A DNA stretch of 57,695 bases, from contig JANYDA010000031.1 in the NCBI GenBank assembly GCA_025360005.1, positions 1 through 57,695 on the forward strand, in the 5' to 3' direction. Shown in pieces: positions 6,601-56,650 of the stretch. This stretch comes from Fibrobacteria bacterium (GTDB lineage: Bacteria > Fibrobacterota > Fibrobacteria > UBA11236). Below the pieces are notes generated by a model. The model had not been told where the DNA came from. It ran no database searches and was given only the letters and a program-made list of their open reading frames with translations. Within the stretch, counting starts at the first letter, position 1, and each line of letters starts with the position of its first letter. The translations under genes and the position numbers were made by a program.

Positions 6601-9403
6601 TCTTCTCAAAGCGCATGCCTATTGGGAAATGAAGCGCGTGGACGTGGATCTGGTCATGCTGAATGAAAATCCTTCCGAGTCTTATCTGCAATCCCAGCAG
6701 AACGAGTTGGAAGGCCTGCTGCGCATGCGCCATGCGGGCCAGGCAACCCGGGGCGGGGTCTTTTTGCTGCGCCGGGACGCCATCCAAAAGGAACAGCTGC
6801 TGCTGCTGCAGGCGTCCGCCCGCGCGGTACTCGGCAGCCGGCGCGGCAGTTTGGCGGATCAGGTGATGCGCATGCGCCGCAACACCGCGCCCACCGCTCC
6901 CGTGCCCGCAAAAGCACGCGCCGCAAAAACGAGCGCGGCTTCTCCCGTGCTTCCGGCCCTGGAGTTTTTCAATGGCCTGGGCGGTTTCGCTTCGGATGGA
7001 AAGGAATACCACATCATCCTGGGCGACGGCCAATGGACGCCTGCCCCATGGATCAACGTCATCGCCAATCCGGATTTCGGATTCCTGGTTTCCGAATCCG
7101 GATCGGGATTCACCTGGTGCGGCAACAGCAGGGAAGCCAAGCTTACGCCGTGGTTCAACGATCCCGTTTCGGATCCCGGTGGCGAAGCGGTTTATCTGCG
7201 CGACCGGGATACAGGGGCGGTTTGGAGCCCAACCGCGCTGCCGATCCGCGAAGAGGGGCAGCCTTATGTCGTCATCCACGGCCAGGGGTATTCCCGCTTC
7301 ACGCATGAATCCCACGGCATTCGCCAGGAGTTGACGCAATGGGTTCCCTGGGAGGATCCGATCAAGATATCGCGCCTGATTCTGGAGAACACTTCCGATC
7401 AGCCGCGCCGTCTGGACGCGACTTTTTACGTGGAATGGGTATTGGGCGCGGCGCGCGGGCCCTCGACGCAACAGGTGCAGACCAAATCCGACGCCGCTAC
7501 GGGAGCCCTCTTCGCGGGCAATACCTGGTCCGCCGAATTCGCGGGCAGGGTTGCGTTTGCGGATCTGCAAGGCCGCCAGAGCTCATTCACATGCGACCGC
7601 GCCGAGTTCCTGGGACGCAACGGAGACCGAGCCGCACCCGCTGCCCTGTTCAAGCCGGAACCATTGTCGAACCGGGCCGGGGCGGGGATGGATCCCTGCT
7701 CGGCTTTGCAGTGCGCCCTTGTCATCCCCCCTTACGGAAAAACGGAGATCGTTTTCACCTTGGGCCAGGCTTCCCGGGAATCGGCCGCTTCCGATCTGGT
7801 CCGTAAATACCGCGCCGTCGATTTCGCGAAATCGTGGCAGGATGTAAAAGAAAAATGGGATGCCTTACTGGGCGGCGTCCGCATCCGCACCCCGGATCGC
7901 TCCCTGGATCTATTGCTGAACCGCTGGCTTCCGTACCAGACCATCGCGTGCCGGCTTTGGGCGCGTTCCGGTTTCTACCAGGCGGGGGGCGCCTATGGCT
8001 TCCGGGATCAATTGCAGGATGCGATGGCGTTCACGGTGCTGGATCCGGGCCCGGCCCGCGAACAGATTATCCGGGCCTCGGGTAGGCAGTTCCACGCCGG
8101 GGACGTGCAGCATTGGTGGCACCCGCCTTCCGGCCGAGGGGTGCGCACGCATTTTTCCGACGACAGGATCTGGCTGATCTACGCGGTGCTGCATTACCTG
8201 GAAAGCACCGGGGATGTGGGCGTCCTGGATCAGGAGACGCCTTTCCTGGAGGGTCCGGATATTCCCCCGGGCAAGGAGGACGCCTATTTCCATCCCGAGA
8301 CCTCGTCGGAATCGGCGAGCGTGTACGAGCATTGTTCGCGCGCGCTCGATCGCAGCCTGGCCGTGGGTTCGCATGGGCTGCCCTTGATGGGAAGCGGCGA
8401 CTGGAACGATGGCATGAACCGCGTGGGGCAATCCGGCAAAGGGGAAAGCGGGTGGCTGGCCTGGTTCCTGATCCCCAACCTGAAAGGGTTCGCCGACATC
8501 GCGGAATCGCGCGGGCACCGGGAACGGGCCGCGGCCTGGCGCGAAAAGGCCGAGCAGATACGCCTGGCGATGGAATCGCAGGGCTGGGACGGCGATTGGT
8601 ACCGCCGGGGGTACTTCGATGACGGGACGCCGCTGGGTTCTTCGCAGTCCCGCGAGTGCCGCATCGATTCCATCGCCCAGAGCTGGGCGGTGCTTTCGGG
8701 AGCGGCCGATCCGTCCCGCGCCCGCCAAGCCATGATCTCGGTGGAAGAGTACCTGGTCAAGCGCGAAGAGGAGCTCATCCTGCTCTTCACGCCGCCCTTC
8801 GACGTATCCAACGCCGACCCGGGGTATATCAAAGGTTACCTCCCGGGAGTGCGCGAGAACGGCGGCCAATACACGCATGCGGCGGTGTGGGTGGTGGCGG
8901 CCTTCGCCGCGCTGGGCGAAGGCAACAAGGCCGCGGAATTGTTTTCCCTCCTGAACCCCGTCAACCATGCCGGAACGCGCGCAGGCGCCCTCCGGTACAA
9001 AGTGGAGCCTTACGCCGCCGCCGCCGACGTTTATGCCGTCAGCCCGCATGTTGGACGCGGAGGCTGGACCTGGTATACCGGATCCGCGGGTTGGATGTAT
9101 CGCGCCGGCCTGGAATGGATGCTGGGGTTGCGGATTTCCGGAAAAAGATTGACCCTGCGGCCTTGCATTCCCCGCGATTGGCGCCGGTTCGAGATCAAAT
9201 TGCGGCGCGGCGCGTCGGAATATGAAATCACCGTGCTGAATCCCAACGGCCATACGCGCGGGATAGAGGCCTGCCAGGTGGACGGAGTTACCCTGGAGCG
9301 GGTGCCCGCATCTTACGGCTTGGATGACGACGGTAAAACGCACTACATCCGGGTTACCATGGGGGAGCCGCGGAGTGGATCAGAAGGAGGAGTGAACCTA
9401 TGA
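614..9403 (+). CDS. ndvB: Cyclic beta-1,2-glucan synthase (NdvB/ChvB/Cgs family)
   Basis: A 2,929-residue inner-membrane enzyme expected to polymerise UDP-glucose into cyclic beta-1,2-glucan; Agrobacterium and Brucella homologues are about 2,830-2,870 residues, so it is full length. In order: a conserved N-domain (LPKLTQGAFTGYPRVY, TIGELWAVAITLR), a GT84 glycosyltransferase with DVDTRLP near residue 625 and RQHRWARGDWQL near 778, membrane helices in about 410-455 and 815-1000, a glucoamylase-like domain (YFAHHQGMM near 1560), a carbohydrate-binding segment near 1640, and a C-terminal GH94 phosphorylase-like domain with GSGDWNDGMN near 2592 that sets chain length. The start could be GTG 614, ATG 617 or ATG 674; family alignment slightly favours 674 (MDPIRSEIFS). 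The next gene overlaps its stop by 4 bp. Confidence 0.95.
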   Translation: MMILSPLGDVNTREDARPSGMDPIRSEIFSAEHLQAYAAELAGLHKSASARSRRRGVPLLRRVEENGEALREAHRIITRAILADRSVTPAAEWLADNFYVVNVQLREIRNHLPPSYYRDLPKLTQGAFTGYPRVYAIICAYIAHTDSRLDAELLARFLQAYQRVQPLTIGELWAVAITLRVALTENLRRLADQMVGGRDARKKADRVADMLLNLRSQDAGSIAVTPEDWERSGDSPFFTAFAAQLFQRLQDQAPPHAAPLDWMDAELSRQGISAQEIIRQEHQKLAASNISVRNIITSMRLVLELDWKEFFESVSMVETVFRASPGYSEMDFASRDLYRHAVENLSRSSGKDELRVATMAVESIGQGEADDPREVGYSLIGCGRREFERGLGYRSEAREAIRRFFKAGGIWFYAGGIMAIALLFAIAGLRSLADAGLPWAAVIVPVLLALAPYSEGALALMNRIASDLSAARILPKMDFTKGIPAFSRTLVAVPSMLRDKAEVGDLIERLEVHFLANPDGDIRFALLSDWVDAPSEKMPGDEDLLAAAVAGVADLNARYAPLPDGGARFLLLHRRRTWNARDRVWMGWERKRGKLSELNRLLRGERELGFILSPDDLGRVPSGVKYVITLDVDTRLPKGAAARLAGCMAHPLNRPHFDAGKGRVTAGYGIMQPRVVPALPERGRGTFFHWVTAGECGIDPYASAISDVYQDLFGEGSFTGKGIYDVDAFEHSLRGRIPENAMLSHDLFEGVFARAGLVTDIEVLEDFPSHYQASTLRQHRWARGDWQLLPWILGSRGKGLPFLGRWKMADNLRRSLVAPCAFFSLALAWLMAPQPPVAWTAILLLALAMPFFVAAHGAILSYRSGFSLRSYLRDVEAALLQALSHYLLSIVLLAHQAWLMSDAILRTGLRLCFGRGSMLQWIAAAVAATRVHFRLPGIYRDMAGAVVLPAALLAGMFLLGRIGNLPIAAPLLALWLLSPAAALFASTPRKIRRGGMLSPEESVFLRLTALKTWRFFRDFVNEGENNLPPDNFQEDPQPVVAHRTSPTNMGLCLLSIATARDLGWLGLAETAQRLEGVLGSMGKLERYRGHFFNWYATRDARPLEPRYISTVDSGNLAGHLLALKRSCLEYMDASILSPSLEAGLADLFGLVKEAVRALPENMRAQAFGREHLLEALLALESLVIPVPVESDEWTARVSAWDAQSGSVVDLARSMAMDQKDPAFKELLGCAEFLRATLGGILRDIDAYSPWLLARSDWDALQPLPIPETRHLLDGRPSLRELESRCLAAAAELRGLPPAVQGEHEGYADTLILAGRFADGLIRSAREARAMLDRLGTLSVTAERLGLDMDFGFLEDPHRKLFSIGFRVREEQLDPGFYDLLASEARLTSFLAVAKGDVPPSHWFRLGRTLTPVGRGATLLSWSGSMFEYLMPSLVMRPPEGSLLDVACRYAVERQMEYGRDNGIPWGISEAAYSIRDLEMTYQYSSFGVPGLGLKRGLGTDLVVAPYATGLAAMIAPRSAAENLLRLRSEGAEGKYGFYDAVDYTKARLQEGSRATVVKSYFAHHQGMMLVALGDVLLGGRMRERFHSEPIIQAVDPLLQERLPKGVAIAEPNTEEAERPLPVANLIEPVLHRFNTPHEPIPRTHILSNGRYTVLITAAGSGFSRWQGQAITRWREDAVMDAYGQYFYLRDTESGHTWSAAFQPMGREPDSYSAVFAEDRVEITRRDGSLTATLEIVISPEDDAEVRRLTLENTGYRDREVEVTSYCEVVMAPQEADLAHPAFSNLFVQTEFIPGLGALLATRRPRSAGESPSWAAHVCGVEGQAVGGIQYETDRARFLGRGRTVRRPVSVVDGKPLSNTAGAVLDPVFSLRRRVRVPADGKVRISFTTLAAETREKALALADKYRETESFQRVATLAWTQAQIQLKHLGIGPDEARLYQRLANRLYYTDAALRPSPDLLAMNRKGQEGLWAFGISGDLPIVLAGFDEGGDRNLARDLLKAHAYWEMKRVDVDLVMLNENPSESYLQSQQNELEGLLRMRHAGQATRGGVFLLRRDAIQKEQLLLLQASARAVLGSRRGSLADQVMRMRRNTAPTAPVPAKARAAKTSAASPVLPALEFFNGLGGFASDGKEYHIILGDGQWTPAPWINVIANPDFGFLVSESGSGFTWCGNSREAKLTPWFNDPVSDPGGEAVYLRDRDTGAVWSPTALPIREEGQPYVVIHGQGYSRFTHESHGIRQELTQWVPWEDPIKISRLILENTSDQPRRLDATFYVEWVLGAARGPSTQQVQTKSDAATGALFAGNTWSAEFAGRVAFADLQGRQSSFTCDRAEFLGRNGDRAAPAALFKPEPLSNRAGAGMDPCSALQCALVIPPYGKTEIVFTLGQASRESAASDLVRKYRAVDFAKSWQDVKEKWDALLGGVRIRTPDRSLDLLLNRWLPYQTIACRLWARSGFYQAGGAYGFRDQLQDAMAFTVLDPGPAREQIIRASGRQFHAGDVQHWWHPPSGRGVRTHFSDDRIWLIYAVLHYLESTGDVGVLDQETPFLEGPDIPPGKEDAYFHPETSSESASVYEHCSRALDRSLAVGSHGLPLMGSGDWNDGMNRVGQSGKGESGWLAWFLIPNLKGFADIAESRGHRERAAAWREKAEQIRLAMESQGWDGDWYRRGYFDDGTPLGSSQSRECRIDSIAQSWAVLSGAADPSRARQAMISVEEYLVKREEELILLFTPPFDVSNADPGYIKGYLPGVRENGGQYTHAAVWVVAAFAALGEGNKAAELFSLLNPVNHAGTRAGALRYKVEPYAAAADVYAVSPHVGRGGWTWYTGSAGWMYRAGLEWMLGLRISGKRLTLRPCIPRDWRRFEIKLRRGASEYEITVLNPNGHTRGIEACQVDGVTLERVPASYGLDDDGKTHYIRVTMGEPRSGSEGGVNL

Positions 9404-9837: not shown

Positions 9838-9843
9838 TCCGGA

Positions 9844-9857
9844 AACGGCGGGCCGTT
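9844..9857. terminator. Short hairpin between convergent genes
   Basis: AACGG-CGGG-CCGTT lies in the 18-bp gap between the convergent stops of the DUF2892-like gene and the GAF gene. It has no T-run and is short, so it is only a weak candidate for a shared terminator. Confidence 0.3.
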
Positions 9858-11727
9858 AATCGGACAAAGCGGGAACTTGCGCCGCAAGCGCCGGGGCCGG
9901 GAAAGGCAGAAAACGCTTGAGGCCTTTGCTGGCCTGCAGGCAGAAGTTCAGCAACACGTCCTTGTCCTGATCGGAGAAGGCGCGCCCGGCGGATAAATCC
10001 AGCGCCTTTTTGTCGTACATGGTGAGGGAACCCATGATTTTCCCGTCGATCTCGATAGCCATTGCCAGCACGGATTCGCAGGGAATGGTGTCGGAAGCGT
10101 AGGGGGTATCCTGCAGCTTGTCTATCTTGAGCACGCCTTTGCCCGGCGCCATATCGTCGCAGATGTATTCGTCCACGGACAGAATGTCCTTCATCCAGAC
10201 CGGGTTGCGGTGGCTCAGGGTATCGCGCACTTGCAACTCCCCGTCCGGGGCGCTCCGCAAGCGTAACACGCAGGTTTCCGCTTCCAGGATCAACCGCAGG
10301 TTGGAGAGGATCATCTTGGTAAGGTCCGGAAGCGTGCGGGAATTGGCGATATCGAAGGAGAATTGCGCGATGGCGGAATACTTGAGCGATTGCACCTTGA
10401 TGGATTCCATTTCGCGGTTCTTGCACATCTCCCGCGCCAGCATGTCGCCGATCTTCTTGATCAGCCCCATCTCCTCTTTCAGGTGGTTCTTCTCGGAGTG
10501 GAGGTAGATGAAAAGGGTGCCGATCAATTCGTTGCCGGAACGGATGGGCTGGAGCAGGTACCATTTCTTGGCGCGCGGCGTTTTGCCGGTGGCGTTGACG
10601 CAGAAAGTGGTGGGCGTCTTGATGACGCGCTGGGTGAAGAAATCGTCCAGCAGCATGGTACGCTCGCGCAGCATGCTCACGCTTACGGAGCTGGAAGCTT
10701 TGGCTATGAACGCCCGATCGGGAGGGTTGAATTCGTAATAGGTGCACACCCTGGCCCCGAAGGCGTTGGCGATTTTCATCAGCAGCAGGTTCAGCCTCTC
10801 CTCGAACCGGTACTTCATGGACAGGATTTCCCGTACGCTGTTCAACAGGCCCAGGGTATAGGCGGAGTTCTGGTTCGTTTCGTATTCCTTGGACGTCTTG
10901 ATGACTTCCGCCGTAAGGCTGGCCAACTCCTCCAGGAAACTCACGTCGGTGGCGTCGAATACGCGCGCGGGATTCTTGCTGGCGATATTGATCACCCCCA
11001 CCGCCTCTTCTCCGAACATCAGGGGGCAGCAGATGGATGACACGATTTCCGGCCGCTGGTAGTCGGCGGACAGGGCCTGCTTGTCCACTGCGCCGTTGAT
11101 GAGGATGGGTTCGCAGCGGCGTACCGCATTCCCGGAGATGCCCCGGCCTACACGTTGGATGGAGGAAACGATGACGCTCTCCTCCATGCCATAGGCGGAC
11201 TCGATGGTCAATTGGCGCTTGGAGGGATCCAGGAGCATGATGGAGCCGGTATCCGCGCGCGAGGATTTGACCGCCGTGCTCAGGATGACTTTGAAGATCT
11301 CGGCCTTGTTCTTGGTGAGGCATACCGCTTCCCGGATCTCTTCCAGGCTTTGCAATATGCCTTCCTTCTCCGCGGGCTGTCCCTTGCGGATGCTGCAGAA
11401 CAGGATGCGCGCGCCCAGGCCGCTGATGACGTCGACTTTTTTCAAAGGCAGCTTCTTGAGCCGTGCCGCTATCGACGCATTATGGGTGGTATCGATGATG
11501 ATGGATAGATGGGGGTACTGGGTCAGGCGGCCCAGATCCTCCAGGTCGGGATTGAGCACCTTGACGACTTGTATCCCTTCCGAATCCAACAAGCTGGGAA
11601 GCAGATTGGCCGCTTCGCGGTTGAGGCCAACGATGGCGACTTGGCGGATCTCCCCGCGGTTTTCCCCCGGACGTGGATCCCTGTCCGCGTTCAAGGACGA
11701 AGGATTCGGTTCGTTGTGCTCGGGCAT
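9856..11727 (-). CDS. Cytoplasmic sensor with Rossmann-like N-domain and three GAF domains
   Basis: A 623-residue soluble protein. I chose ATG 11727 (MPEHNEPN) because the longer open frame upstream is arginine- and proline-rich without homology character. Residues about 25-115 look like a nucleotide-binding or receiver-like alpha/beta fold (IRQVAIVGLNREAANLLPSL, then HLSIIIDTTHN). Three GAF-type domains follow: the first around SIMLLDPSKRQLTIESAYGM, the second around ARVCTYYEFNPPDRAF, the third around TCVLRLRSAPDGELQV. There is no kinase, cyclase, GGDEF or DNA-binding output, so it probably acts through a partner. The N-domain plus GAF arrangement is known from delta-proteobacterial sensors; the ligand is unknown. 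Confidence 0.75.
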   Translation of the reverse strand: MPEHNEPNPSSLNADRDPRPGENRGEIRQVAIVGLNREAANLLPSLLDSEGIQVVKVLNPDLEDLGRLTQYPHLSIIIDTTHNASIAARLKKLPLKKVDVISGLGARILFCSIRKGQPAEKEGILQSLEEIREAVCLTKNKAEIFKVILSTAVKSSRADTGSIMLLDPSKRQLTIESAYGMEESVIVSSIQRVGRGISGNAVRRCEPILINGAVDKQALSADYQRPEIVSSICCPLMFGEEAVGVINIASKNPARVFDATDVSFLEELASLTAEVIKTSKEYETNQNSAYTLGLLNSVREILSMKYRFEERLNLLLMKIANAFGARVCTYYEFNPPDRAFIAKASSSVSVSMLRERTMLLDDFFTQRVIKTPTTFCVNATGKTPRAKKWYLLQPIRSGNELIGTLFIYLHSEKNHLKEEMGLIKKIGDMLAREMCKNREMESIKVQSLKYSAIAQFSFDIANSRTLPDLTKMILSNLRLILEAETCVLRLRSAPDGELQVRDTLSHRNPVWMKDILSVDEYICDDMAPGKGVLKIDKLQDTPYASDTIPCESVLAMAIEIDGKIMGSLTMYDKKALDLSAGRAFSDQDKDVLLNFCLQASKGLKRFLPFPAPALAAQVPALSD

Positions 11728-41781: not shown

Positions 41782-43449
41782 CTAGGCAAGGATATCGTCC
41801 GGCCCATCCACCGCGGGAGCCTTATTCTTGTTGGTGATCAGGTGCAATGCCTCCAGATGCTTGCGGAATGCCTTTACGGCCCGCCCTTTCAGAGCGCGCG
41901 CGGCCAGGGGTTCGCACAACAACTTGGTGCGTATGAAAAGCCGCTCCCAGCGGGAAAGCGCGATCAGCTCGTGTTTCATCAGATAGCGGATCAATTCCCC
42001 GAAAAGGGAATTCCAGACCAGCAGGTTGATCCCGAAACCGCCCAGGAAAGCCGTGCGCGAGGCGATGATCAGATGATGTTCCTTGTTGTTCAACTGCGGA
42101 TGCTTATAGCTGGCCTTCAGCCTGCGGAACCCGATGCGCTCGTACATGGGCAGGAGTTCATCCATGGCCGATGTCAGCAGCCAATGCCGGTCGGACATCA
42201 GGAAATGCTTCAAGCCGTGTTCGAACATCCCTTGCAGCACGTCCGTGCCGCGATACTCGGGATGGATGCACAGGCGCGAGACTTCGATAAGGTTCGCCTT
42301 GGGCGGCAAAGGCACCGGATATTTCCCCCCCTGGAATCCCGCTTGGCTATCCAGTACGGTTTCTTCCGAGGTAGGGAAGGTGAATGTCAACGTACCCACC
42401 AAGCGCTCATGATGGTGCGCCATCAGGATGCGGCTCTTGCCGTCCAAGGCGGAAGCCATGTCTTCCGGAGAGGTCTCACGGGCGCGCTTGCCCGCCCCCA
42501 CGTAGGCGTCCCGGCGCAGGTAGAGGACTTCCGCATAGTCTTCCAGCGATTTCACCGAGCGGAAACGCAGGTGGCTTTTGACCTGTTGTACCCGGAACCC
42601 GGCGTCGAACAACCTGGCCGGGGTCCATTGCCGGGAAAACATGAGGAAGTCGCAGATGCCGTTGTGGAGCCGGAAGTCGATGTCGGCGCATTCCACTCCG
42701 AAGCGGATTTCTTCCGCGCTGGCCGCGTTGATCCACGCTACGCGCACACGCATGGGAAGCGATCGGTACGAGGCCAGCTCGAAGAAGAGGCGCAACTCCA
42801 TGCCCTCGAACAGCAGGATCGACTCGTCGTGGGAAAGGAAGGAGAATCCCATGTTCTTGTTGAGATCGGAAGCCTGGAGCGCGCACCAATGCCCGTAAAT
42901 GAAGGGATGCCGCACACGCGCCCGCAAGGCGAGCGACGGCGCGAGAGAAAGGCGGAATCCTTCCCGCCTTTCCAAATCGACGGCGCGGGGGAAATTCAGA
43001 TCCAACCGCCGGCAGCCGATTTTGAAACCGTCTTTCCAGTGGCTCACGTTCTTTACTTCGCACCAGACTTCAAATTCCTGGTGGGCTTCAATCCGGATCC
43101 GGACCAGGAGTTCTTCGCCTGCTGAAAGCGGAGACGATTTGGATTTGTCGTCGGGATGGGGTTGGTAAAGAATTCCGAACCCGATGGCGCTGAAATCCCA
43201 GAGTTTGACCGCGCACCAATTCTCGCCGCCCATGCGGACCGAAACGGAGACGGAGCCCAACTCCCGCTGGGAAAAACGGCTTTGGTTCCGCTTGTCCTCC
43301 TTTACGGAAGGCCGCTTTTTTTTCTTGGGTTGGCGATGGCGTTTGGATTGGGGAACCGGGCTCCAATCGCTTTCCAGGCGGGTGTTGGTTGCGGGAGCCG
43401 CCCAAGCGGCTTTCGCGGCCCCGGAATCTCCCAAAGAATTCTTGTCCAT
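41782..43449 (-). CDS. PilZ domain plus N-acyl-amino-acid-synthase-like acyltransferase (paralogue 2)
   Basis: A 555-residue protein. I use ATG 43449 (MDKNSLGDSG); starting higher would overlap the diiron gene and read a basic, low-complexity stretch. After a Lys-rich N-terminus comes a PilZ domain with RNQSR (54-58) and DFSAIG (85-90), the c-di-GMP-binding RxxxR and DxSxxG motifs, and a second PilZ-like unit (RREGFR). The C-terminal half is a GNAT-fold domain of the FeeM/NasY type (YLRRDAYVGAGK, EVSRLCIHPEYRGTDVLQ, YERIGFRRL), which in relatives joins fatty acyl groups to amino acids. Third gene of the operon 45794-41782, 19 bp after the diiron gene. Acyl donor and amine are unknown. Confidence 0.78.
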   Translation of the reverse strand: MDKNSLGDSGAAKAAWAAPATNTRLESDWSPVPQSKRHRQPKKKKRPSVKEDKRNQSRFSQRELGSVSVSVRMGGENWCAVKLWDFSAIGFGILYQPHPDDKSKSSPLSAGEELLVRIRIEAHQEFEVWCEVKNVSHWKDGFKIGCRRLDLNFPRAVDLERREGFRLSLAPSLALRARVRHPFIYGHWCALQASDLNKNMGFSFLSHDESILLFEGMELRLFFELASYRSLPMRVRVAWINAASAEEIRFGVECADIDFRLHNGICDFLMFSRQWTPARLFDAGFRVQQVKSHLRFRSVKSLEDYAEVLYLRRDAYVGAGKRARETSPEDMASALDGKSRILMAHHHERLVGTLTFTFPTSEETVLDSQAGFQGGKYPVPLPPKANLIEVSRLCIHPEYRGTDVLQGMFEHGLKHFLMSDRHWLLTSAMDELLPMYERIGFRRLKASYKHPQLNNKEHHLIIASRTAFLGGFGINLLVWNSLFGELIRYLMKHELIALSRWERLFIRTKLLCEPLAARALKGRAVKAFRKHLEALHLITNKNKAPAVDGPDDILA

Positions 43450-43468
43450 GTCCTTCAATCCGGCCGGA

Positions 43469-44218
43469 TTACTTTCCAGCGCCTTTTTTTTCCGGCGGGT
43501 TCCCGTCCGCCTTGGCGGCGCGCGTTTCCCGCTTACCGATGCTGCTCCAGTCTCGTGCCCGCGTCTCATCGTCCAGAATACCCTGCAACATGAGCGCATG
43601 CAGGCGAGCGGTGCCTTTGGCGCAGTGGATTACGGCCTGAATATCCTCTTCCGTTTCCAGGCTCCCAAGCAGATATCCCTCCAGCCATTTGGTATGCGTC
43701 ACATCCACTTTTGCATGCTCGTCCAGAAAAGTCATCGCGGTCGCGGGGACGCCCATGGCGGTAAGCGCCTTCAGGATGCTTTCGCCCTTGCCGGCCGGCA
43801 GCATTTCCAAGTGATAAATGTAACCCAAGTATCCAACCGGATTGGAATGCTGCACCTGATAGATTGCGAAAGCGAGCATGGCTTCCGTAGTGGGGAGTGG
43901 GCGGCCCGCCGGGATGCCGGATACGTCCTCGCCCAGGCTGCGCAGGTCGTCCAGCGCCATATTATGGTGGCCGTATTCGGCCAGGCAATGGCGGAAAATT
44001 TTCGGCGATAAGTCCCGTTTGTTGCCTTTCAAGTGCCCGGACATCAAGGCGAAGGATTGTGGGTTTTCCCGCACATTGTAGTAGATTTCCCGCAGCAGGA
44101 TCTTGTAATGATCCAAGGTCAATGAGCCTTCCACCAAGCGCCGGAAAAAATCACCTTGGTATAAATCGCCCAGGGAGGCTTCCCACTCTTTTTTGATCCT
44201 ATCGATCATCTTTCCCAT
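43469..44218 (-). CDS. Haem-oxygenase-like diiron oxidase/oxygenase (iron-containing redox enzyme)
   Basis: A 249-residue all-helical protein of the haem-oxygenase-like diiron (HDO) group, which includes UndA (fatty acid to terminal alkene), SznF and BesC. ATG 44218 is an estimate; ATG 44209 is possible. Candidate metal ligands in family order: Glu44 (LLREIYY), Glu81 and His84 (AEYGHHNM), Glu138 (YHLEML), His168 (DEHAKVD), Asp172 and His175 (VTHT). Its start overlaps the stop of the upstream acyltransferase by 20 bp and its stop is 19 bp from the next one, so it is embedded in that operon. The substrate is probably a fatty acyl or N-acyl compound; this is inference. Confidence 0.75.
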   Translation of the reverse strand: MGKMIDRIKKEWEASLGDLYQGDFFRRLVEGSLTLDHYKILLREIYYNVRENPQSFALMSGHLKGNKRDLSPKIFRHCLAEYGHHNMALDDLRSLGEDVSGIPAGRPLPTTEAMLAFAIYQVQHSNPVGYLGYIYHLEMLPAGKGESILKALTAMGVPATAMTFLDEHAKVDVTHTKWLEGYLLGSLETEEDIQAVIHCAKGTARLHALMLQGILDDETRARDWSSIGKRETRAAKADGNPPEKKGAGK

Positions 44219-45794
44219 CCATGGATATTCTTTTCTGCAACAATTCCCGGAATTCCCTTTCCAACCCCGCATCCAACCATTTGCGGGTGAACCCGGAGAA
44301 CAGGGAATAGAACGCCACCCTGGCCTTGAGCCAGGAGCCCAACTGCAAGTGCCCGCGCTCGATCAATTCACGCACCAGGGAGCCGAAGAAATAATTCCAC
44401 GCGAACGGCCGCATCCGCACCCCCGCGATCAAACTGTTCCTATGCAGCAGGATCAGGTGGTGCTCCAGGTTCCCCAGCTCCTTGATGAGCACGGAGGCGC
44501 CCACCTTCTTGAAGCCTATCCGGCGGTACAGCGGCCACAATTTGGCGGTGGTAAAGGTGAGGATCCACTTCCGATCGGAAAAGAGCATGCAACGCGCGAT
44601 TTGCTCGAACATGCCCTGGATCAGATCCCCGCCGCGGTAATCGGAATCCGTACAAAGGGAAATCACCTCCATGATGGAGTCCTTGGGAGGCACCCGCACC
44701 GGGAATTCCGCGCCCGGGAAACATCCTTCCGTCCTGAGCGTGGTCCCCTCCGCCCCCGCGAAGCTTAAAGCCACGGAAGCCACCAATTGGTCCCCATGGA
44801 AAGCCGCCAGCAGGCGGCTGTGGGAATCGAAGGCGGTTGCGATGGGATCCGGGTCGGCGTGGGGAGAAGCCTTCCCGGCCTTTGCATACGCATCCTTCCG
44901 CAGCTTGAGGATGGCTTCGTATTCCTCCTGGGTGGAAACGAAACGGAAGCGCGTCTGATCCTTGAACCGTTTCAGCCGCAGGCCGAAGTCCGATAACCCG
45001 CTGGGTTTGCAAAGCTCCGCTTGCACGAAATGCTCGCCGATGGCGTTAGAGAGATCGAAGGAAAGATCCGATTCATGGATCGCGAAAAGGACGCGCCCGG
45101 CAAGGCCCGCGCGGATCCAAGCGATGGAACCGGTGCATTTCCCTTGCGAGTCCAGAGGCAGCTCGATGTCCAAGGTGACGCGGGCCCCTCCCAACAACAA
45201 CAGCCCCGCATCGGAGGATTCAAATACCATGGTTGCCTTGGGCCCAATCCCCACCATCCTGGCTTCCGACCACTCCTTATACAGGTAAGGGTTCAGGACC
45301 TTGGCCGTAACGGGCCGGATGGTATCCTGCAAATAGCCGGGCGGAAACTCCGGTTCCTGCTCGCCGTTGGCGAAGGGCAGCAGATCCAGTCGGCTCAGGC
45401 CTATCCGCATCCCTTTTTCCACCCGGGTGGCATTCTCGATGAGGCAAGGCAGCTGGAAACTTTTCCCGGGCTGGGCGTCTTTACCGCCGAGCCCGCCCAG
45501 TCGCAGCTCTATGCGATCTCCGGGAACGGAAAACTCGGATGCGATGCCGCCCGGCTGGTACAGGATCCCAAAACCGAAAGTGGAGTAGTCCCATATCCGC
45601 ACTGGTACCCACTCGTTCCGCTTCCGGGATCGGATCCATGCCGGGATCCGTTCTATTTCCCGCTCCACCGTGCGCGGCGCATGCCGCAACGCGCTCGCAT
45701 CGGAAGGGCGCCAGGATTCACGGGGTAACTTCAACGGATCCAATGGATAGTTGGTGCCGGGCGCTATGGGTATGGCTTGCTGCGGTTGGTTCAT
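44199..45794 (-). CDS. PilZ domain plus N-acyl-amino-acid-synthase-like acyltransferase (paralogue 1)
   Basis: A 531-residue paralogue of the protein at 41782-43449, sharing its architecture. The PilZ motifs are REIER (45-49) and DYSTFG (69-74), followed by a second PilZ-like module and a C-terminal GNAT/FeeM-type domain (KLRKDAYAKAGK, EVISLCTDSDYRGGDLIQ, YRRIGFKKV). It is the first gene of the three-gene operon, 95 bp from the divergent histidine kinase. The two paralogues diverge strongly outside the motifs, so they probably have different substrates or form a heteromer. Both binding motifs are intact, so control by c-di-GMP is likely. Confidence 0.78.
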   Translation of the reverse strand: MNQPQQAIPIAPGTNYPLDPLKLPRESWRPSDASALRHAPRTVEREIERIPAWIRSRKRNEWVPVRIWDYSTFGFGILYQPGGIASEFSVPGDRIELRLGGLGGKDAQPGKSFQLPCLIENATRVEKGMRIGLSRLDLLPFANGEQEPEFPPGYLQDTIRPVTAKVLNPYLYKEWSEARMVGIGPKATMVFESSDAGLLLLGGARVTLDIELPLDSQGKCTGSIAWIRAGLAGRVLFAIHESDLSFDLSNAIGEHFVQAELCKPSGLSDFGLRLKRFKDQTRFRFVSTQEEYEAILKLRKDAYAKAGKASPHADPDPIATAFDSHSRLLAAFHGDQLVASVALSFAGAEGTTLRTEGCFPGAEFPVRVPPKDSIMEVISLCTDSDYRGGDLIQGMFEQIARCMLFSDRKWILTFTTAKLWPLYRRIGFKKVGASVLIKELGNLEHHLILLHRNSLIAGVRMRPFAWNYFFGSLVRELIERGHLQLGSWLKARVAFYSLFSGFTRKWLDAGLEREFRELLQKRISMDGKDDR

Positions 45795-45824
45795 GTGAAA
45801 TCAGATGAATCTTAAGGAGTGGCA

Positions 45825-45917
45825 GTGAAAAAAGTCAAATTCCTAACGGCAACGGGGAAGTTGCTACCTTCACGGAGGGTTGCGCGCATATGGAAAAAGT
45901 CTACTCCAACAAGCTGA
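45825..45917 (+). CDS. Possible 30-residue leader peptide before the histidine kinase
   Basis: GTG 45825 has a stronger ribosome-binding site (AAGGAG, spacing about 6) than the kinase start itself. It encodes MKKVKFLTATGKLLPSRRVA and ends at 45917, 28 bases inside the kinase gene in another frame. Such overlap would couple or throttle kinase translation. It may equally be chance. Confidence 0.25.
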   Translation: MKKVKFLTATGKLLPSRRVARIWKKSTPTS

Positions 45918-48046
45918 TATTCTCCTTGGCCCGATTTCTGGAACAGAAATTCGGGAAGGCGAAAATTGATGAAATCCTTGAAAAAGCCAAGATAGATCGC
46001 CTGAAGCTGGCGGATCCTTCCGGGTTCCAGACGGCAGAGGAGGCGGATGCCCTCACCCGCACGGCGATGGAACTGACCGGGGAAAAGGACATCACCTATC
46101 TGGCCGGCAGAAACCTTCCCAAGGACCTGGGCAAGGCGGGCGGCTTTATCATCGGTGTCACGTCCCCTGCCTTCATCATGAAAACCCTGTGCCATATAGA
46201 GGGCCGCATGGCCCTGAAAACCATCAATCACACCCAGAAGATCGGGCGCAACCGCTATCAAGTCGACATCACTTTCAAAGATGGTTTTAAAGAACAGGAT
46301 TATGTATGCCGCCACCGCATCGGTGTGTATGAATCCGTGCCTTTATTCTTCGATCTCCCCTTCGCGAAAGTGGAGCATCCGCAATGCGCTTTCAAAGGCG
46401 GGGAACATTGCCGGTATGAGATCCAATTCCCGGAATCCCAATTCTCGATCTACAACCGCATTTTCCAATTCTTGGTTCTCTTGGCCCTGGCAAGCTTGTG
46501 CATCTGGTTCCGCAAGACCTCGCCCCCCTCATTCTTGTATGCCAGCTTCCTCGCTTCCAGCCTGGGTTTCCTGAGCCTGGCGCGTTACCGCAGCTTGGGC
46601 GCCAAAAAATCGCTGGAATGGTCCCTGATCGCCAACGAAGGCTTGAGCAAGCAAAACCAGCAATTGGAAAACAACAATCTCCAGATCAATTCCCTCCAGG
46701 ATCTCTCCACCTTGCTGCTCAATTCCATGCGCGTGCAGCAAATCTGCGACAAGGTGGTATTCATGCTGGTGCAGCAATTCCGTTTCGGCTCCAGCCAAAT
46801 CTGGCTCCTGGACGATAAGGGCGAATACCTGGGATGCAGGAAAGCGATGGGATATTCGGAATCCCTTTTGGCGTTCATCATCAACACGCGTTTCAAGATA
46901 GGGGAGAACTGGGACAACCCTTATGGCCTGCTGGTGCAGACGTTGGAGAAAAAGCAAACCCTGCTGGTGAACGATCCGGAAGAAGTCTACTCCAGGGTGA
47001 CGCCCCGTACGCGGGAATTCCTGGAGGCGTTGAAAATCTCTTCCTTCATCATGACGCCCTTGTTCCACGGCGATAGGCCGCTGGGCATTCTGGCGGCCGA
47101 ATACCATTCCGGGGAAAAGATGCAGAACCAGGACAAGCTCCTGTTCCAATCGATTTCCAATATCGTCGCCAACGCCATCGTGAAAGCGGAGCTCTTCACG
47201 CAAATGGAATGGAAGATCGAAGAGCGGACCCGGCAATTGGAAGCCGCTTCCAAGCAGCTGCTGGCCGCCCAGGAAATGGCCATCCAAAGCGAGAAGCTTT
47301 CTTCGCTCGGCCAGATGGCCGCGGGCGTGGCGCATGAGATCAATAACCCGCTGAATTTCCTCATCAACATCCTGCCGGACGTGCGCCGGGATGTGGAAGG
47401 CCTGGAGAAGATCCGTGAGCTGGCCGCGCAGGGCGGGCTGAGCGAAGCCGCCTTGCAGGCCATCAAAGCCGTGGACGAGCAATACGATCTGGAAACGCAT
47501 TTGTCCGAGAAGAACTTCGTCTTCGAGAAAATCCAGAAGGCCTTGGACAAAAGCACCCGCATCGCCAACAGCCTGAAGGTCTTTTCCCGCTCTTCCGCCA
47601 AGGAGGCGATCACCCGGGAAAAGTTCGGGGACATGATGCGGGAAGTGATCGATCTGGTGCCGCGGAAAATCATCGGCGACACGCGCATCCTGGTCGAAAT
47701 CCCCGGCAGCCTGGATTGGATGGTGAACAAGAACGAGATGGAGCAGGCGTTCCTGGCCATCATCAACAACGCCATCGACGCCATGAACCAGAAGGGCGAG
47801 CTTGCGATCCGGGGCGAGGATGCGCCGGAGGAGATCAGGATTTCCTTTCAGGACCAAGGCCCGGGGATCTCGGAAGAGATTATCAAACGTATCTTCGACC
47901 CGTTCTACACAACCAAACCGCCCGGTAAGGGGACGGGGTTGGGATTGACCATCGCCTTGGAGATCGTCAAAAAGTACGGCGGCGTATTGGGCGTCCAATC
48001 CCAGCCGGGCCAGGGAACGACCTTTTCGATCCGTTTCAAAAAATAG
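45890..48046 (+). CDS. Sensor histidine kinase with V4R/HNOB-like N-domain, membrane helices and GAF
   Basis: A 718-residue kinase. Residues about 1-185 form a soluble ligand-binding domain ending in AFKGGEHCRYEIQF, a pattern I know from V4R/haem-NO-binding-like sensor domains; specificity is unknown. Two membrane helices follow (about 193-235), then a GAF domain (about 270-430), a coiled coil, HisKA with MAAGVAHEINNPLN (phospho-His near 483) and a HATPase domain (INNAIDAM, DQGPGISEEI, GKGTGLGLTIALEI). No receiver is attached. It is divergent from the PilZ/acyltransferase operon, which it may regulate. ATG 45890 has GGAGGG ten bases upstream. Confidence 0.85.
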   Translation: MEKVYSNKLIFSLARFLEQKFGKAKIDEILEKAKIDRLKLADPSGFQTAEEADALTRTAMELTGEKDITYLAGRNLPKDLGKAGGFIIGVTSPAFIMKTLCHIEGRMALKTINHTQKIGRNRYQVDITFKDGFKEQDYVCRHRIGVYESVPLFFDLPFAKVEHPQCAFKGGEHCRYEIQFPESQFSIYNRIFQFLVLLALASLCIWFRKTSPPSFLYASFLASSLGFLSLARYRSLGAKKSLEWSLIANEGLSKQNQQLENNNLQINSLQDLSTLLLNSMRVQQICDKVVFMLVQQFRFGSSQIWLLDDKGEYLGCRKAMGYSESLLAFIINTRFKIGENWDNPYGLLVQTLEKKQTLLVNDPEEVYSRVTPRTREFLEALKISSFIMTPLFHGDRPLGILAAEYHSGEKMQNQDKLLFQSISNIVANAIVKAELFTQMEWKIEERTRQLEAASKQLLAAQEMAIQSEKLSSLGQMAAGVAHEINNPLNFLINILPDVRRDVEGLEKIRELAAQGGLSEAALQAIKAVDEQYDLETHLSEKNFVFEKIQKALDKSTRIANSLKVFSRSSAKEAITREKFGDMMREVIDLVPRKIIGDTRILVEIPGSLDWMVNKNEMEQAFLAIINNAIDAMNQKGELAIRGEDAPEEIRISFQDQGPGISEEIIKRIFDPFYTTKPPGKGTGLGLTIALEIVKKYGGVLGVQSQPGQGTTFSIRFKK

Positions 48047-51853: not shown

Positions 51854-52084
51854 ATGAAAACAGCCAGCTTTACCGAGTTCCGCAAGCATGCCGCCGAGTT
51901 CCTGGATGAGGTTGAAAAGGGCGAAGTAGTCCGGATCTTGAGGCACGGGAAAGCCGTTGCCGATATCAGCCCTGTCCTTGTGGAGGATAAGCCTTCCTGG
52001 AAAAAGACGCCGCCCCAGCTTCCGTTGAGCGGCGTCTCCCTGTCCAAGGCCATCCTGCAAAACCGGAAAGACGCGGCCAGGTGA
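51854..52084 (+). CDS. Phd/YefM-type antitoxin
   Basis: A 76-residue protein with the Phd fold at the N-terminus (SFTEFRKHAAEFLDEVEKGE, VVRILRHGKAVADISPV) that binds DNA, and a C-terminal tail that neutralises the toxin. AAGAGGAAA lies before ATG 51854. It overlaps the PIN toxin by 4 bp, so the toxin is only made after the antitoxin. Confidence 0.92.
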   Translation: MKTASFTEFRKHAAEFLDEVEKGEVVRILRHGKAVADISPVLVEDKPSWKKTPPQLPLSGVSLSKAILQNRKDAAR

Positions 52085-52497
52085 AGGTTTTCTTCGACTC
52101 CTCGGCTTTGGTCAAAAGGTATGTCCCCGAAAAGGGCACGGATGCGGTCCTGGAGCTCTGCGACGAAGCCAGTGAGCTGGGGCTATCCGTAATCTGCTAC
52201 CCGGAGATCATCTCCGCTCTGTGCCGGCTCCGTCGAGAAAAGCAAATCGAGGGATCTCAATACGTGACCGCAAAACAGGGCATCGCCCAGGATCTGCGGG
52301 ATGCGGCCTTATGCAACATCACGGAGACGGCGGTGCTTCAATCCATCCTCCTTCTTGAGGAGAACACCTTACGGGCCATGGATGCCTTCCACATCGCCGC
52401 CGCTTTGGAATGGGAGGCCGATCTCTTCGTCTCCAGCGACTTGCATCAGATCAAGGCTGCGAAAAAGGCCGGGCTTGCGGTTCGGTCTGTTCCTTAA
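52081..52497 (+). CDS. vapC: PIN-domain toxin (VapC family)
   Basis: A 138-residue ribonuclease toxin starting at GTG 52081. The conserved acidic residues of PIN domains are present: Asp6 (VFFDSSALVKRY), Glu near 42 (CYPEIISAL), Asp near 102 (RAMDAFHIAAAL) and Asp near 120 (LFVSSDLHQIKAA). Homologues cut initiator tRNA or other RNAs. Likely intact and functional. Confidence 0.92.
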   Translation: MKVFFDSSALVKRYVPEKGTDAVLELCDEASELGLSVICYPEIISALCRLRREKQIEGSQYVTAKQGIAQDLRDAALCNITETAVLQSILLLEENTLRAMDAFHIAAALEWEADLFVSSDLHQIKAAKKAGLAVRSVP

Positions 52498-53021: not shown

Positions 53022-53690
53022 TTACTCCACGTTCATACCTTTCAGGAACATTTCCAGGTATTTTTCCCCTTTCCCCTCAAAATCCACAGGCTTGTTAATG
53101 AAATCGTAAAATCTGTTGGATCGCAACGAACGGTACATCAGGTCTTCATCGCTATTTGGATTTCCAGTAATAAGAATAAATCTCATCAAGGGTTTGGCTT
53201 TTTGGACCTCGTCACATAGTTCATTGCCGCTCAGCTTAGGCATAACTTCGTCGGTAATAACAAGCGCTACGTCGTCGCTGGCTTTGATGAATGCCAGGGC
53301 ATCGATGGGACTTGTGAAAGTTTTCAGGTTAATGCGCTTGCCGAATTTCCTTTTGAAAACGAATATGTTTTCTTCCTCGTCGTCCACATATACTACGACT
53401 GGATTTTTCTTTCGGGAAGCCAGAGATAATTTGATTTGCTTTAGCAAATCGCCCAAACTCATGGTATTCAAATCTGTAGGGTTCAGCAAGTCCCTTAACT
53501 TTAAATCCTTACCGCCCAGGCGGTCTTCTAGTTCTGCAACTACTTCTGGTAATGTGGTAATATCCAGGCCCAAATCGTCCAGCGCCATTCCTTCATCCAA
53601 TTTTTCTGGCAAACCCCTATAAGACGGATCTTTGAAGGACAGTCCGGCCACAATTTCCCTTATAATTCCGTATAGTGTAGTTGTTTCCAT
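53022..53690 (-). CDS. ACP-like domain fused to response-regulator receiver (paralogue 1)
   Basis: A 222-residue cytoplasmic protein. Residues about 5-88 have acyl-carrier-protein pattern (GMALDDLGLDITTLPEVVAE, then LEDRLGG and MSLGDLLKQI), but the phosphopantetheine Ser of the usual GxDSL is Ile44, so it cannot carry an acyl group. Residues about 97-220 are a complete receiver: Asp103/104, phospho-Asp147 (LVITDEVMPKLSG), Thr175 (ILITGN) and Lys200 (FINKPVDF). It begins 8 bp after the alpha-oxoamine synthase stop, hence one operon. No output domain: it may regulate the synthase by contact. GC is low (about 40%). Confidence 0.75.
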   Translation of the reverse strand: METTTLYGIIREIVAGLSFKDPSYRGLPEKLDEGMALDDLGLDITTLPEVVAELEDRLGGKDLKLRDLLNPTDLNTMSLGDLLKQIKLSLASRKKNPVVVYVDDEEENIFVFKRKFGKRINLKTFTSPIDALAFIKASDDVALVITDEVMPKLSGNELCDEVQKAKPLMRFILITGNPNSDEDLMYRSLRSNRFYDFINKPVDFEGKGEKYLEMFLKGMNVE

Positions 53691-53698
53691 GATTCTCC

Positions 53699-54982
53699 TT
53701 AAGCACTTGCCGATGGAACGATACCGAGTCTTCCGCCGACGTCAATGAGGATGGCTAGTGTGCGATCGATTTGATCATACGTATGTGATGCATTTGTTAT
53801 GAATCGTAATCGGCCTTCATTGAGTTTAACGGCAGGGAATGCGATTGTCACCGAGAATACGCCATTTTCATAAAGGTTTCTACCAAAAGCGAGCAACGTC
53901 TTCGTTTCTCGTACATAAATGGGAATGATTGGGCTTTGGCTTTTTCCCAGGTCGAATCCCGCAGCGCGAAGGCCCTTGCGGAAATAGGCCGTCTTTTCAT
54001 GTAAGCCGCGAATCAAAGCTGGATCCGACTCGATTTCATCAAGGCTTGCCAGAACTGCGCCGGCATCCGCGGGGGAGATGCAGGCTTGGAAAATATAAGA
54101 GTTGGAATGCCATGACATTAGGGTACAGTATTTTTTTTTGGTTGAAACGAATCCGCCTATGGAAGCGGTCGCTTTGGACAACGTCGACATGATAAAGTCG
54201 ACATCATCCGTAACACCTTGTTCATAGCAATAACCGCGGCCACCTTCGCCGTAAAATCCAAATGAGTGTGCTTCGTCCACATACAGATAAAATTTGTACT
54301 TCTTCTTAAGAGCAGCGATCTCTCTCAATGGGGCTAGATCTCCGCTCATGGAATAAGCCGATTCGACAACTACTAAAATATTCTGGAATTTGTCCTGGCA
54401 GCGCTGAAGCTTCGCCTCAAGATCGGTCAAATTGTTGTGTTTGAAGGCAAGCCACTGTTTCCCAGAAAGTTTGCATCCATCAATGATGCTCGCATGGGAT
54501 TGATGATCGAAAAGGATGATGTCGTTCTTGCCAGGAATGGCGGAAATCGCTCCCAGGTTGACTGAGTACCCGGTAGGAAATAAAAGGGTCCGTTCCTTTC
54601 CTGTCATCGCATTGATGCGTGATTCAATGGCTTTGTGAAGGGTGTTCATGCCCCCCGACATGGCAGAGGTTCCCGCCCCGGTTCCGTAACGTTCCACTAT
54701 TTCTTTTGATTTGGCGATGACTCTGGGATTTCTGTTTAAGCCCAGGTAGTGATTGACACACCAAAGAATACATTCGTTTTTTTTTCCGGTTCCTTCGGTG
54801 ATCACCAAAGCTTGGGAGTCGCTCCCGAATTCAGTATAGCGATCATTGGAGTAAAGGCCCTCTATGTTCTGCAAATCCTTAACGGTTTGCATGGCATCGG
54901 CGATACTATCGAAATCGGTTACTCCTTCGTCCACCAGCTTGCGCATCACATTTCCGATTACCATCGAAGTATTTAGTTCCAT
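53699..54982 (-). CDS. Alpha-oxoamine synthase (CqsA/SPT/KBL-type PLP enzyme)
   Basis: A 427-residue PLP enzyme that condenses an amino acid with an acyl thioester. Motifs: NHYLGLNRNPRVI, YGTGAGTSAMSGG (99-111), LLFPTGYSVNLGAIS, DHQSHASIIDG (159-169), YVDEAHSFGFYGEGG (234-248) and the PLP-binding Lys270 (STLSKATASIGGF). The fold includes 8-amino-7-oxononanoate synthase, serine palmitoyltransferase and the autoinducer synthases CqsA/LqsA. There are no biotin or sphingolipid genes nearby, and the neighbours are a signalling regulator and a CqsS-like receptor, which points to a signal molecule. A sphingolipid-type product remains possible. Confidence 0.85.
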   Translation of the reverse strand: MELNTSMVIGNVMRKLVDEGVTDFDSIADAMQTVKDLQNIEGLYSNDRYTEFGSDSQALVITEGTGKKNECILWCVNHYLGLNRNPRVIAKSKEIVERYGTGAGTSAMSGGMNTLHKAIESRINAMTGKERTLLFPTGYSVNLGAISAIPGKNDIILFDHQSHASIIDGCKLSGKQWLAFKHNNLTDLEAKLQRCQDKFQNILVVVESAYSMSGDLAPLREIAALKKKYKFYLYVDEAHSFGFYGEGGRGYCYEQGVTDDVDFIMSTLSKATASIGGFVSTKKKYCTLMSWHSNSYIFQACISPADAGAVLASLDEIESDPALIRGLHEKTAYFRKGLRAAGFDLGKSQSPIIPIYVRETKTLLAFGRNLYENGVFSVTIAFPAVKLNEGRLRFITNASHTYDQIDRTLAILIDVGGRLGIVPSASA

Positions 54983-55132: not shown

Positions 55133-56650
55133 ATGCGAAAGTTCCACCTCAACACCGATTACGCTTTTTTCCAAAAAGTGATCCCCGTACTGGGTGGATT
55201 CGGGTTGTTCGGGCACGTGACATTCTATTTCATCCTGAAATACGGCTTCTCTTACTGGGAATCTTGGCAGTTGAGATTGAGCGCCGCGCTCATTCACGTA
55301 GCCTTGATATTCTTCCCAAGGGAAAAATCGCTTAGCATCATTCAGAAGATGTATTTCGAAACGGCGATTGCCCTTACCCTTCCCGCTTTGTTCACGGTGC
55401 TTTTCCTTAAAAACGGATGCAATGTCTATTGGTATTCTTCCTTAATCTTCGCGGGGTTATTGCACGGTCTGTTGACTAAACCTTTTCTTTTTATCTGGAC
55501 ATTTCCAGCCGCGGCCGGACTGGCGACAATGTTTTTCACAAGGATTCATCCTGGAGAGCATCAATTGGTGATGCAAAGTCTGCAAGCGCAGTTGGTCGCT
55601 TATTTCCTGGGATTGATTACTACCGGTATCAAAACCACCATGGAAATATCTCATGAGAAAATCATGGTAACCAAGATGGCGCTGGCAAAGGCTGAAAATG
55701 ATTTACTCACAGCCGAGGTGACTCGTAAGGCCTACGATGAGCTTAAGAAGCGCGAAGAGCTTATCCGCCTCTACGTCCGCCCTTCCCTGGTCGAAGAGAT
55801 CCGCGCCGGTAAGGACCCGTCCAAATCCGATCCGGTAATCAAGAACCTCTCCATCATGTTCTGCGACATCCGCGAATTCACCAAGCTCACCGAAACCTTG
55901 ACCCCCTATGAACGCCAGATGTTCCTCAACCAGTACTTCTCCATGATGACCCGTCCAATCGTCGACAACGGGGGAGAAGTCGACAAGATCATGGGGGATT
56001 GCGTCATGAGCATTTTCCCGGACGGCGCCAAGGCCGTGAAAGCCGCGGTCGCGATGCGCCTGGAATTGCAGAAGTTCAACGAGGCCATGTTCGCCGCCGA
56101 AAGCCCCATGATCCGCAACGGCATAGGCATCGCCAAGGGCGACGTGATGCAGGGGAACTTCGGTTCCTTTGAAAAGCTGGACCGTACCGTCATCGGCGAA
56201 GCGGTCAACATCGCCTCCCGTCTGGAGTCCAAGACCAAGATGTACAACCTGGAAGTGGTCGTTACCGAGGACGTCATCAAGGATTTGCCTTTGGGTTCCG
56301 CCCACTACCGTTGGATAGATAATGTCCAGGTCAAGGGATCCACCCGCCATCTCAAATTGTTCGAGATCTACGGGCATCAGCCTGCGGAAGTCCGGCAGTA
56401 TAAGGACGATACCCGGGACTTGCTTGAGAAGGCATTGACCATCTATTTCCAAAAGGGTTTCAAGGACGCTTCCCGGCTGTTCCGCGCCATGCTGGAACAG
56501 GTGCCGCCCCATCGTCTTATCGCCAACGATTTGATGGACAACATCCTGCACTATTACATCGCGCATTGCGACGCCTGGATCAACAATCCCAACGGCACGT
56601 GGGAGGATATCCAGCGTTGGGAAGGCGTTCATGTGTTTACGGAAAAGTGA
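55133..56650 (+). CDS. Six-helix CqsS-like membrane sensor fused to class III nucleotide cyclase
   Basis: A 505-residue protein; ATG 55133 has GAGGA upstream. Six membrane helices (about 16-39, 47-61, 72-92, 97-114, 118-135, 150-168) follow the plan of CqsS, the CAI-1 receptor. Trp100 and Ser103 (VYWYSS) sit where I recall the ligand-contacting Trp104 and Ser107, and the last helix runs into ISHEK as in CqsS. A coiled linker (170-215) leads to a class III cyclase: metal Asp near 244 (FCDIREF), Lys/Asp near 286-290 (DKIMGDCVM), and the N-x3-R transition-state pair (NIASRLE). The Lys and Thr (DRTVIGE) suggest ATP, hence cAMP. A TPR-like tail ends the protein. GC jumps at about 55.72 kb. Confidence 0.8.
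   Translation: MRKFHLNTDYAFFQKVIPVLGGFGLFGHVTFYFILKYGFSYWESWQLRLSAALIHVALIFFPREKSLSIIQKMYFETAIALTLPALFTVLFLKNGCNVYWYSSLIFAGLLHGLLTKPFLFIWTFPAAAGLATMFFTRIHPGEHQLVMQSLQAQLVAYFLGLITTGIKTTMEISHEKIMVTKMALAKAENDLLTAEVTRKAYDELKKREELIRLYVRPSLVEEIRAGKDPSKSDPVIKNLSIMFCDIREFTKLTETLTPYERQMFLNQYFSMMTRPIVDNGGEVDKIMGDCVMSIFPDGAKAVKAAVAMRLELQKFNEAMFAAESPMIRNGIGIAKGDVMQGNFGSFEKLDRTVIGEAVNIASRLESKTKMYNLEVVVTEDVIKDLPLGSAHYRWIDNVQVKGSTRHLKLFEIYGHQPAEVRQYKDDTRDLLEKALTIYFQKGFKDASRLFRAMLEQVPPHRLIANDLMDNILHYYIAHCDAWINNPNGTWEDIQRWEGVHVFTEK

Follow-up and report, generated by a model that had tools for sequence, protein, structure and literature searches.

An acyl-carrier-like domain without the carrier serine, fused to a receiver and encoded beside an alpha-oxoamine synthase in Fibrobacterota

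The output domains of response regulators usually bind DNA, act as enzymes or simply bind proteins. Among the described systems closest to the locus presented here is the AcpR-AasR-SPT system of Rhodobacteria, in which SPT is reported to prefer acyl-AcpR, a dedicated acyl-ACP (acyl carrier protein) (PMC9386255). Another is alpha-hydroxyketone quorum sensing of the Lqs/Cqs type; the receiver of its response regulator LqsR is reported to occupy residues 80–160 and to be joined to an unusual output (PMC3376566), later described as a degenerate GGDEF-like fold (PMC10653808). Literature searches covering titles and abstract openings, mostly of papers outside subscription, listed no work on a response regulator whose output resembles an ACP, and among the matches listed for Fibrobacterota and quorum sensing the name of the phylum was absent.

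The gene studied here, P0001, lies in a window of 57,695 nucleotides, which is the whole stretch of DNA analysed and an entire contig (C44) of a Fibrobacterota genome of 4.98 Mb (98% complete). It is an open reading frame of 222 amino acids on the minus strand (53022–53690, ATG at 53690), and its sequence, Pfam matches and AlphaFold model divide it into an ACP-like N-domain (residues 1–95; 53406–53690, minus strand), with Ile44 at the site of the carrier Ser, and a receiver (residues 98–205; 53076–53399, minus strand) with D103/D104, D147, T175 and K200. The initial annotation had described exactly such a fusion with nothing else attached, and its reading holds: the ACP spacing motifs are in place (LDDLGLD at 37–43, LEDRLGG at 54–60, SLGDLL at 78–83), I44 stands where the carrier Ser would, and no further domain is present. 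The receiver, also claimed to keep all key residues, passes the Pfam Response_reg model (PF00072; 40.7 bits against a cut-off of 30.2), and D103, D104, D147, T175 and K200 are invariant in 16/16 aligned family members; judged by these residues, it is complete and of the phosphorylatable type. The N-domain is the faster-evolving half, with a mean pairwise identity of 32% versus 64% for the receiver (120 pairs). Elsewhere in the window, a single open reading frame of 2929 amino acids spans 614–9403, and a 138-aa open reading frame at 52081–52497 encodes what we take to resemble a PIN-domain (VapC-type) protein.

Fusions of this kind, the search for which the initial annotation had proposed, form a family: among 167 Fibrobacterota genomes, 8 encode a total of 20 copies. 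These 8 comprise every one of the six genomes of the genus of P0001 and two from another Fibrobacterota family. Eighteen copies are complete; contig ends truncate the other two, of which one still shows its N-domain. The named relatives are MAGs of Fibrobacteres/Fibrobacteria. Within the genome of P0001, the other ten matches to it, the paralogue P0002 apart, involve receiver residues only, and a scan of genome contigs gave 38 loci, nine from Fibrobacterota (L043–L051) and 29 others, most of them matching on receiver residues only. Viral contigs yielded 25 pattern matches, with no relative among them. In a tree of 19 copies, where three of the 16 inner branches are strongly supported and only the named clades are used, one clade is associated with SnoaL-like genes, another mostly with cyclase genes, and the copies linked to alpha-oxoamine synthase (AOS) genes fall outside both. 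Each copy of the first clade is directly followed by a gene for a 128-aa SnoaL-like protein (L031 17415–18550, L033 9388–10442, L035 13282–14336); those in L031 and L033 have no AOS close by.

Directly upstream of P0001, on the same strand, is the gene of an SPT/BioF-like AOS (53699–54982, minus strand), which ends 8 nt before the P0001 start codon; the junction reads TTAAGGAGAATCATG, and a Shine-Dalgarno-like AGGAG directly follows the AOS stop. The shared strand, the short gap and this motif make co-transcription of the two genes likely. The enzyme scores below every curated cut-off (342.7 bits against 640 for the curated SPT model), and its best solved relatives in the PDB are SPTs. The tight coupling to an enzyme using acyl thioesters, proposed from the window sequence, recurs in relatives: an AOS gene lies within about 2 kb of 15 of the 20 copies, while of the remaining five, three have no AOS nearby (L031, L033, L037) and the other two are those truncated at contig ends. 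Six copies directly follow an AOS gene or fragment, with a gap or overlap of -4 to 15 nt if the second start in L035 is taken. AOS is the most constant partner of the family, present in seven of the eight genomes, with the copy of the eighth at a contig end, and the link recurs across two Fibrobacterota families. By NCBIfam models, the partners belong to three subtypes, all below curated cut-offs: SPT/BioF-like (the window, L029, L035), best to a CqsA/LqsA-type model (L028, L038, L039) and PRK07505-like (L032). Against the alpha-hydroxyketone autoinducer synthase model, the window AOS scores 192.7 bits and the best relative 301.4, with a cut-off of 428. Since the partner may be any of three subtypes, the link survives replacement of the enzyme, and this coupling argues that the family acts on enzymes of the AOS class. 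At ten further AOS loci from the phylum (L190–L199), some of them in family genomes, 0/10 of the stretches fetched held an ACP-like receiver gene. The genome of the window has a second AOS-type gene, on contig C24. In L028, a 173-aa C-terminal AOS fragment (9838–10359) lies between two ACP-like receiver genes; either the synthase gene has decayed or the assembly is faulty there.

True ACP genes stand near some relatives. In genome G144, the minus strand carries a true ACP (DSM, P0005), an AMP-ligase and an AOS; the ACP-like receiver gene is divergent from this run, 252 nt from the ACP gene. In G139, the 20 kb that contain the ACP-like receiver gene also include an ACP, a ligase and an AOS. True ACP, AMP-ligase and CqsA/LqsA-like AOS genes lie near an ACP-like receiver gene at L039 6211–9041 and at L038 7628–8812 and 15060–16714; these groups, in the two genomes of the other family, are candidates for an ACP-fed autoinducer synthase. 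In the window cluster, no functional ACP with an acyl-ACP synthetase was found beside the AOS, and a PF00550 search of the contig found no true ACP gene.

The window also encodes a histidine kinase (45890–48046, plus strand) with a distinctive sensor (residues 1–190), a GAF domain, a weakly matching HisKA and a HATPase, which is likely the cognate kinase. Its sensor domain (45890–46438 in the window) occurs in exactly the same 8 of 167 genomes as the ACP-like receiver family; as these fall into three of 40 genera, the independent co-occurrences are fewer than eight. Seven of ten sensors weakly match the AraC N-terminal domain Arabinose_bd (best E 2.4e-6), and the sensor profile met only chance metallo-beta-lactamase matches in the PDB. 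Divergent from the kinase gene are those of a FeeM-like N-acyl amino acid synthase (44199–45794, minus strand), a Haem_oxygenas_2 iron enzyme (43469–44272, minus strand) and a PilZ-FeeM-like synthase (41782–43599, minus strand); the two FeeM neighbours pass Pfam FeeM (PF21926) with 44.7 and 38.2 bits against a cut-off of 27. Among family genomes, FeeM-like synthases are confined to the six of the same genus, and a divergent arrangement of FeeM and kinase genes is seen in the window and in G002, G003, G004 and G005. G002 holds, within 12 kb, FeeM, Haem_oxygenas_2, FeeM, kinase, ACP-like receiver, AOS, cyclase and a second ACP-like receiver. The sensor profile matches 19 of 391 genomes, 10 of them outside the phylum. 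Three genomes outside the phylum show fusions: G382 and G371 join the sensor, by way of GAF, to a class III cyclase, and G313 joins the sensor to an HD domain. Sensor and GAF are thus an input unit that serves more than one kind of output, twice, in the cases seen here, with FeeM genes alongside. In G382 (L224 7274–11620) the sensor-cyclase gene is itself divergent from Haem_oxygenas_2 and PilZ-FeeM genes, as the kinase gene is in the window (41782–48046).

The reading that we favour, tentatively, is that P0001 is a response regulator with a pseudo-ACP as its output, acting on the AOS within a locus that makes and senses a lipid signal. The pseudo-ACP would be a domain descended from ACPs that has kept the helical scaffold and would be unable to take phosphopantetheine. 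The kinase may sense an acyl-derived ligand and phosphorylate the receiver of P0001, a link supported by the co-occurrence of kinase and family; phosphorylation may then expose or hide the pseudo-ACP, which could occupy the carrier-protein docking surface of the AOS and possibly also of FeeM. Once docked, it might alter the access of the AOS to its acyl thioester, so that phosphorylation would feed back on signal or lipid synthesis. The final link, from pseudo-ACP to partner enzyme, is one that we infer, and room for other partners is left by the paralogue, by the kinase that matches the family, by the FeeM genes and by the link with a cyclase. A narrower form, in which the phosphorylated protein is a decoy ACP competing with acyl-ACP, or gating acyl-CoA, at the docking site of the signal-making enzyme, is doubtful. 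If a dead carrier protein does serve as output, it would be a new tie between two-component signalling and lipid chemistry that does not pass through transcription; the decoy, if true, would be a new regulatory principle, with direct post-translational feedback from a sensed lipid to lipid synthesis. The cluster is, in addition, a candidate lipid-signal system, open to test, from uncultured Fibrobacterota.

The second ACP-like receiver of the window offers another target. P0002 (56652–57365, minus strand; 237 aa, with VTDAN at the carrier site) is 51% identical to P0001 over residues 7–217, and beside it lies the gene of a class III adenylate/guanylate cyclase whose N-terminal half is hydrophobic (55133–56650, plus strand), divergent from the AOS. 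The ACP-like receivers could relay the kinase signal to this neighbouring cyclase, with the N-domain docking on the cyclase or dimerising and the AOS making the signal rather than being the target. The clade of P0002 and its relatives stands beside a cyclase in five genomes, and the fusions in G371 and G382 imply that sensor and cyclase can share a pathway. Such a relay is a serious alternative, if somewhat unlikely. Against it, the gene directly upstream of P0001, and of its nearest relatives, is that of an AOS, not a cyclase, and the 20 kb surrounding the G144 copy showed no homologue of the cyclase. Perhaps the labour is divided, P0001 acting on the AOS and P0002 on the cyclase.

It is also conceivable, if unlikely, that the N-domain is a helical module of a generic kind, for interaction or dimerisation, and without functional ties to acyl enzymes, its likeness to ACPs being distant ancestry or convergence and the AOS link a shared operon only. 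The fast divergence of the domain fits this, as do the weak results with Pfam: the best match of the single sequence is DEK_C (E 0.0017, under its cut-off), P0001 has no PP-binding match in the Pfam search, and PF00550 (PP-binding) matches seven of 19 N-domains weakly (best E 0.025), none of them seen to reach the curated score. A DEK_C/SWIB-like identity was set aside, as that match is under its cut-off, concerns two of 19 members and covers 23 residues. In a search of 391 genomes with the N-domain, an ACP outside the family in G296 (87 aa, GFDSM, its gene adjoining an AMP-ligase-like gene, identities read from translations) reached E 2.4e-5 and a chance match in G147, RpoA by translation, an almost equal 1.3e-4; these values are per genome, and the ACP match becomes about 0.01 over the whole set.

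Against this stand the profile comparisons. Aligned with hhalign to 24 Fibrobacterota ACPs, the N-domain family scores 25.15 (P about 4e-4), whereas 200 column shuffles give 10.4±2.2 with a maximum of 19.75 (0/200 reach 25.15) and the reversed control 16.6; the alignment thus exceeds random expectation, a point on which the ACP assignment had been made to depend, and its register places D43-I44 on the D-S of ACPs. A profile of 19 N-domains retrieved 17 PDB sequences at E<=10, of which ranks 1–8 are all carrier proteins if RhiE is counted through its ACP-like stretch and CurB is, as we assume, an ACP. NodF is a sounder match there than RhiE: it aligns in a single full-length stretch (E 0.0034, profile positions 6–87), while RhiE, first with E 0.00096, owes its rank to three stretches with a best i-Evalue of 3.6. 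The single N-domain sequence matched the PDB weakly (best E 0.25), with 10 of the 13 chains listed named acyl carrier protein or ACP, and the full-length profile had no PDB match at E 1e-12.

Structure prediction covered the full-length proteins P0001 and P0002. The AlphaFold model of P0001, built from 16 input sequences and with block pLDDT of 71–91 over residues 1–100, has helices at 3–20, 47–57, 66–69/71–76 and 79–90, which is the helix order of ACPs (P0002: 7–24, 51–61, 69–79 and 92–104). Foldseek with the same full-length model returned only receivers among the matches listed, so the three-dimensional likeness is one of helix order, not superposition; against PDB and BFVD, receivers swamp the matches, and the ACP fold is neither backed nor opposed. 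The shuffle control, the PDB ranking and the D-S register favour the ACP origin, the recurrent link with three AOS subtypes is hard to put down to chance, and it is very probable that the N-domain of P0001 is related to ACPs, if distantly.

Whether the carrier Ser ever occurs could be judged from the relatives, and at the start of helix II it is absent in all 19 N-domains. Position 44 holds I in six, D in six, P in three, and V, G, M and L once each; position 43 holds D in 13, T in four and S in two. The two Ser at position 43 precede the carrier site by one residue and alternate with Thr, and we do not read them as carrier residues. Invariant positions are L37 and R57, and position 49, presumably equivalent to Glu41 of ACP, is acidic in 16 of 19. 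At position 55 in helix II, which we take to be Glu47 of E. coli ACP, 13 of 19 have Lys or Arg, which speaks against a simple ACP mimic. That the N-domain still uses some other residue to carry an acyl chain, or accommodates free lipid within its bundle core, is very improbable: ACP cores can hold acyl chains and two of 19 members have the early Ser, but that position is Asp in 13/19 and Thr in 4/19, and the D-S-L context is missing.

Set beside known systems, the N-domain of P0001 resembles NodF/AcpP carrier proteins in helix order, spacing and the GLD..L..LE.R.GG and T/SxGDLL motifs, and differs from them in lacking the Ser, in a partly reversed acidic patch and in its fusion to a receiver. 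With FeeM N-acyl amino acid synthase systems the locus shares the two neighbours that pass the Pfam cut-off; it differs from them in that the contig yielded no true ACP gene, one of its synthases bears a PilZ domain, and the kinase is divergent. AcpR-AasR-SPT likewise ties a small ACP gene to an SPT/AOS gene, and G144 has true ACP, ligase and AOS in one run; AcpR, however, carries 4'-phosphopantetheine, whereas the domain of P0001 has no Ser and is receiver-fused (PMC9386255). A true Lqs system can be set aside, as the synthase fails the alpha-hydroxyketone autoinducer synthase model. The window AOS is closest to SPT models, the sensor shows weak AraC-N-like similarity, and the output of P0001 is ACP-like, while that of LqsR is reported as degenerate GGDEF-like (PMC10653808). 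Like this locus, Lqs/Cqs loci nonetheless group the genes of a sensor kinase and a response regulator with that of a synthase of the AOS type (PMC3376566), and the AOS proteins of three relatives score best to the CqsA/LqsA-type model. In the way it would work, the locus appears to bear a good resemblance to Lqs.
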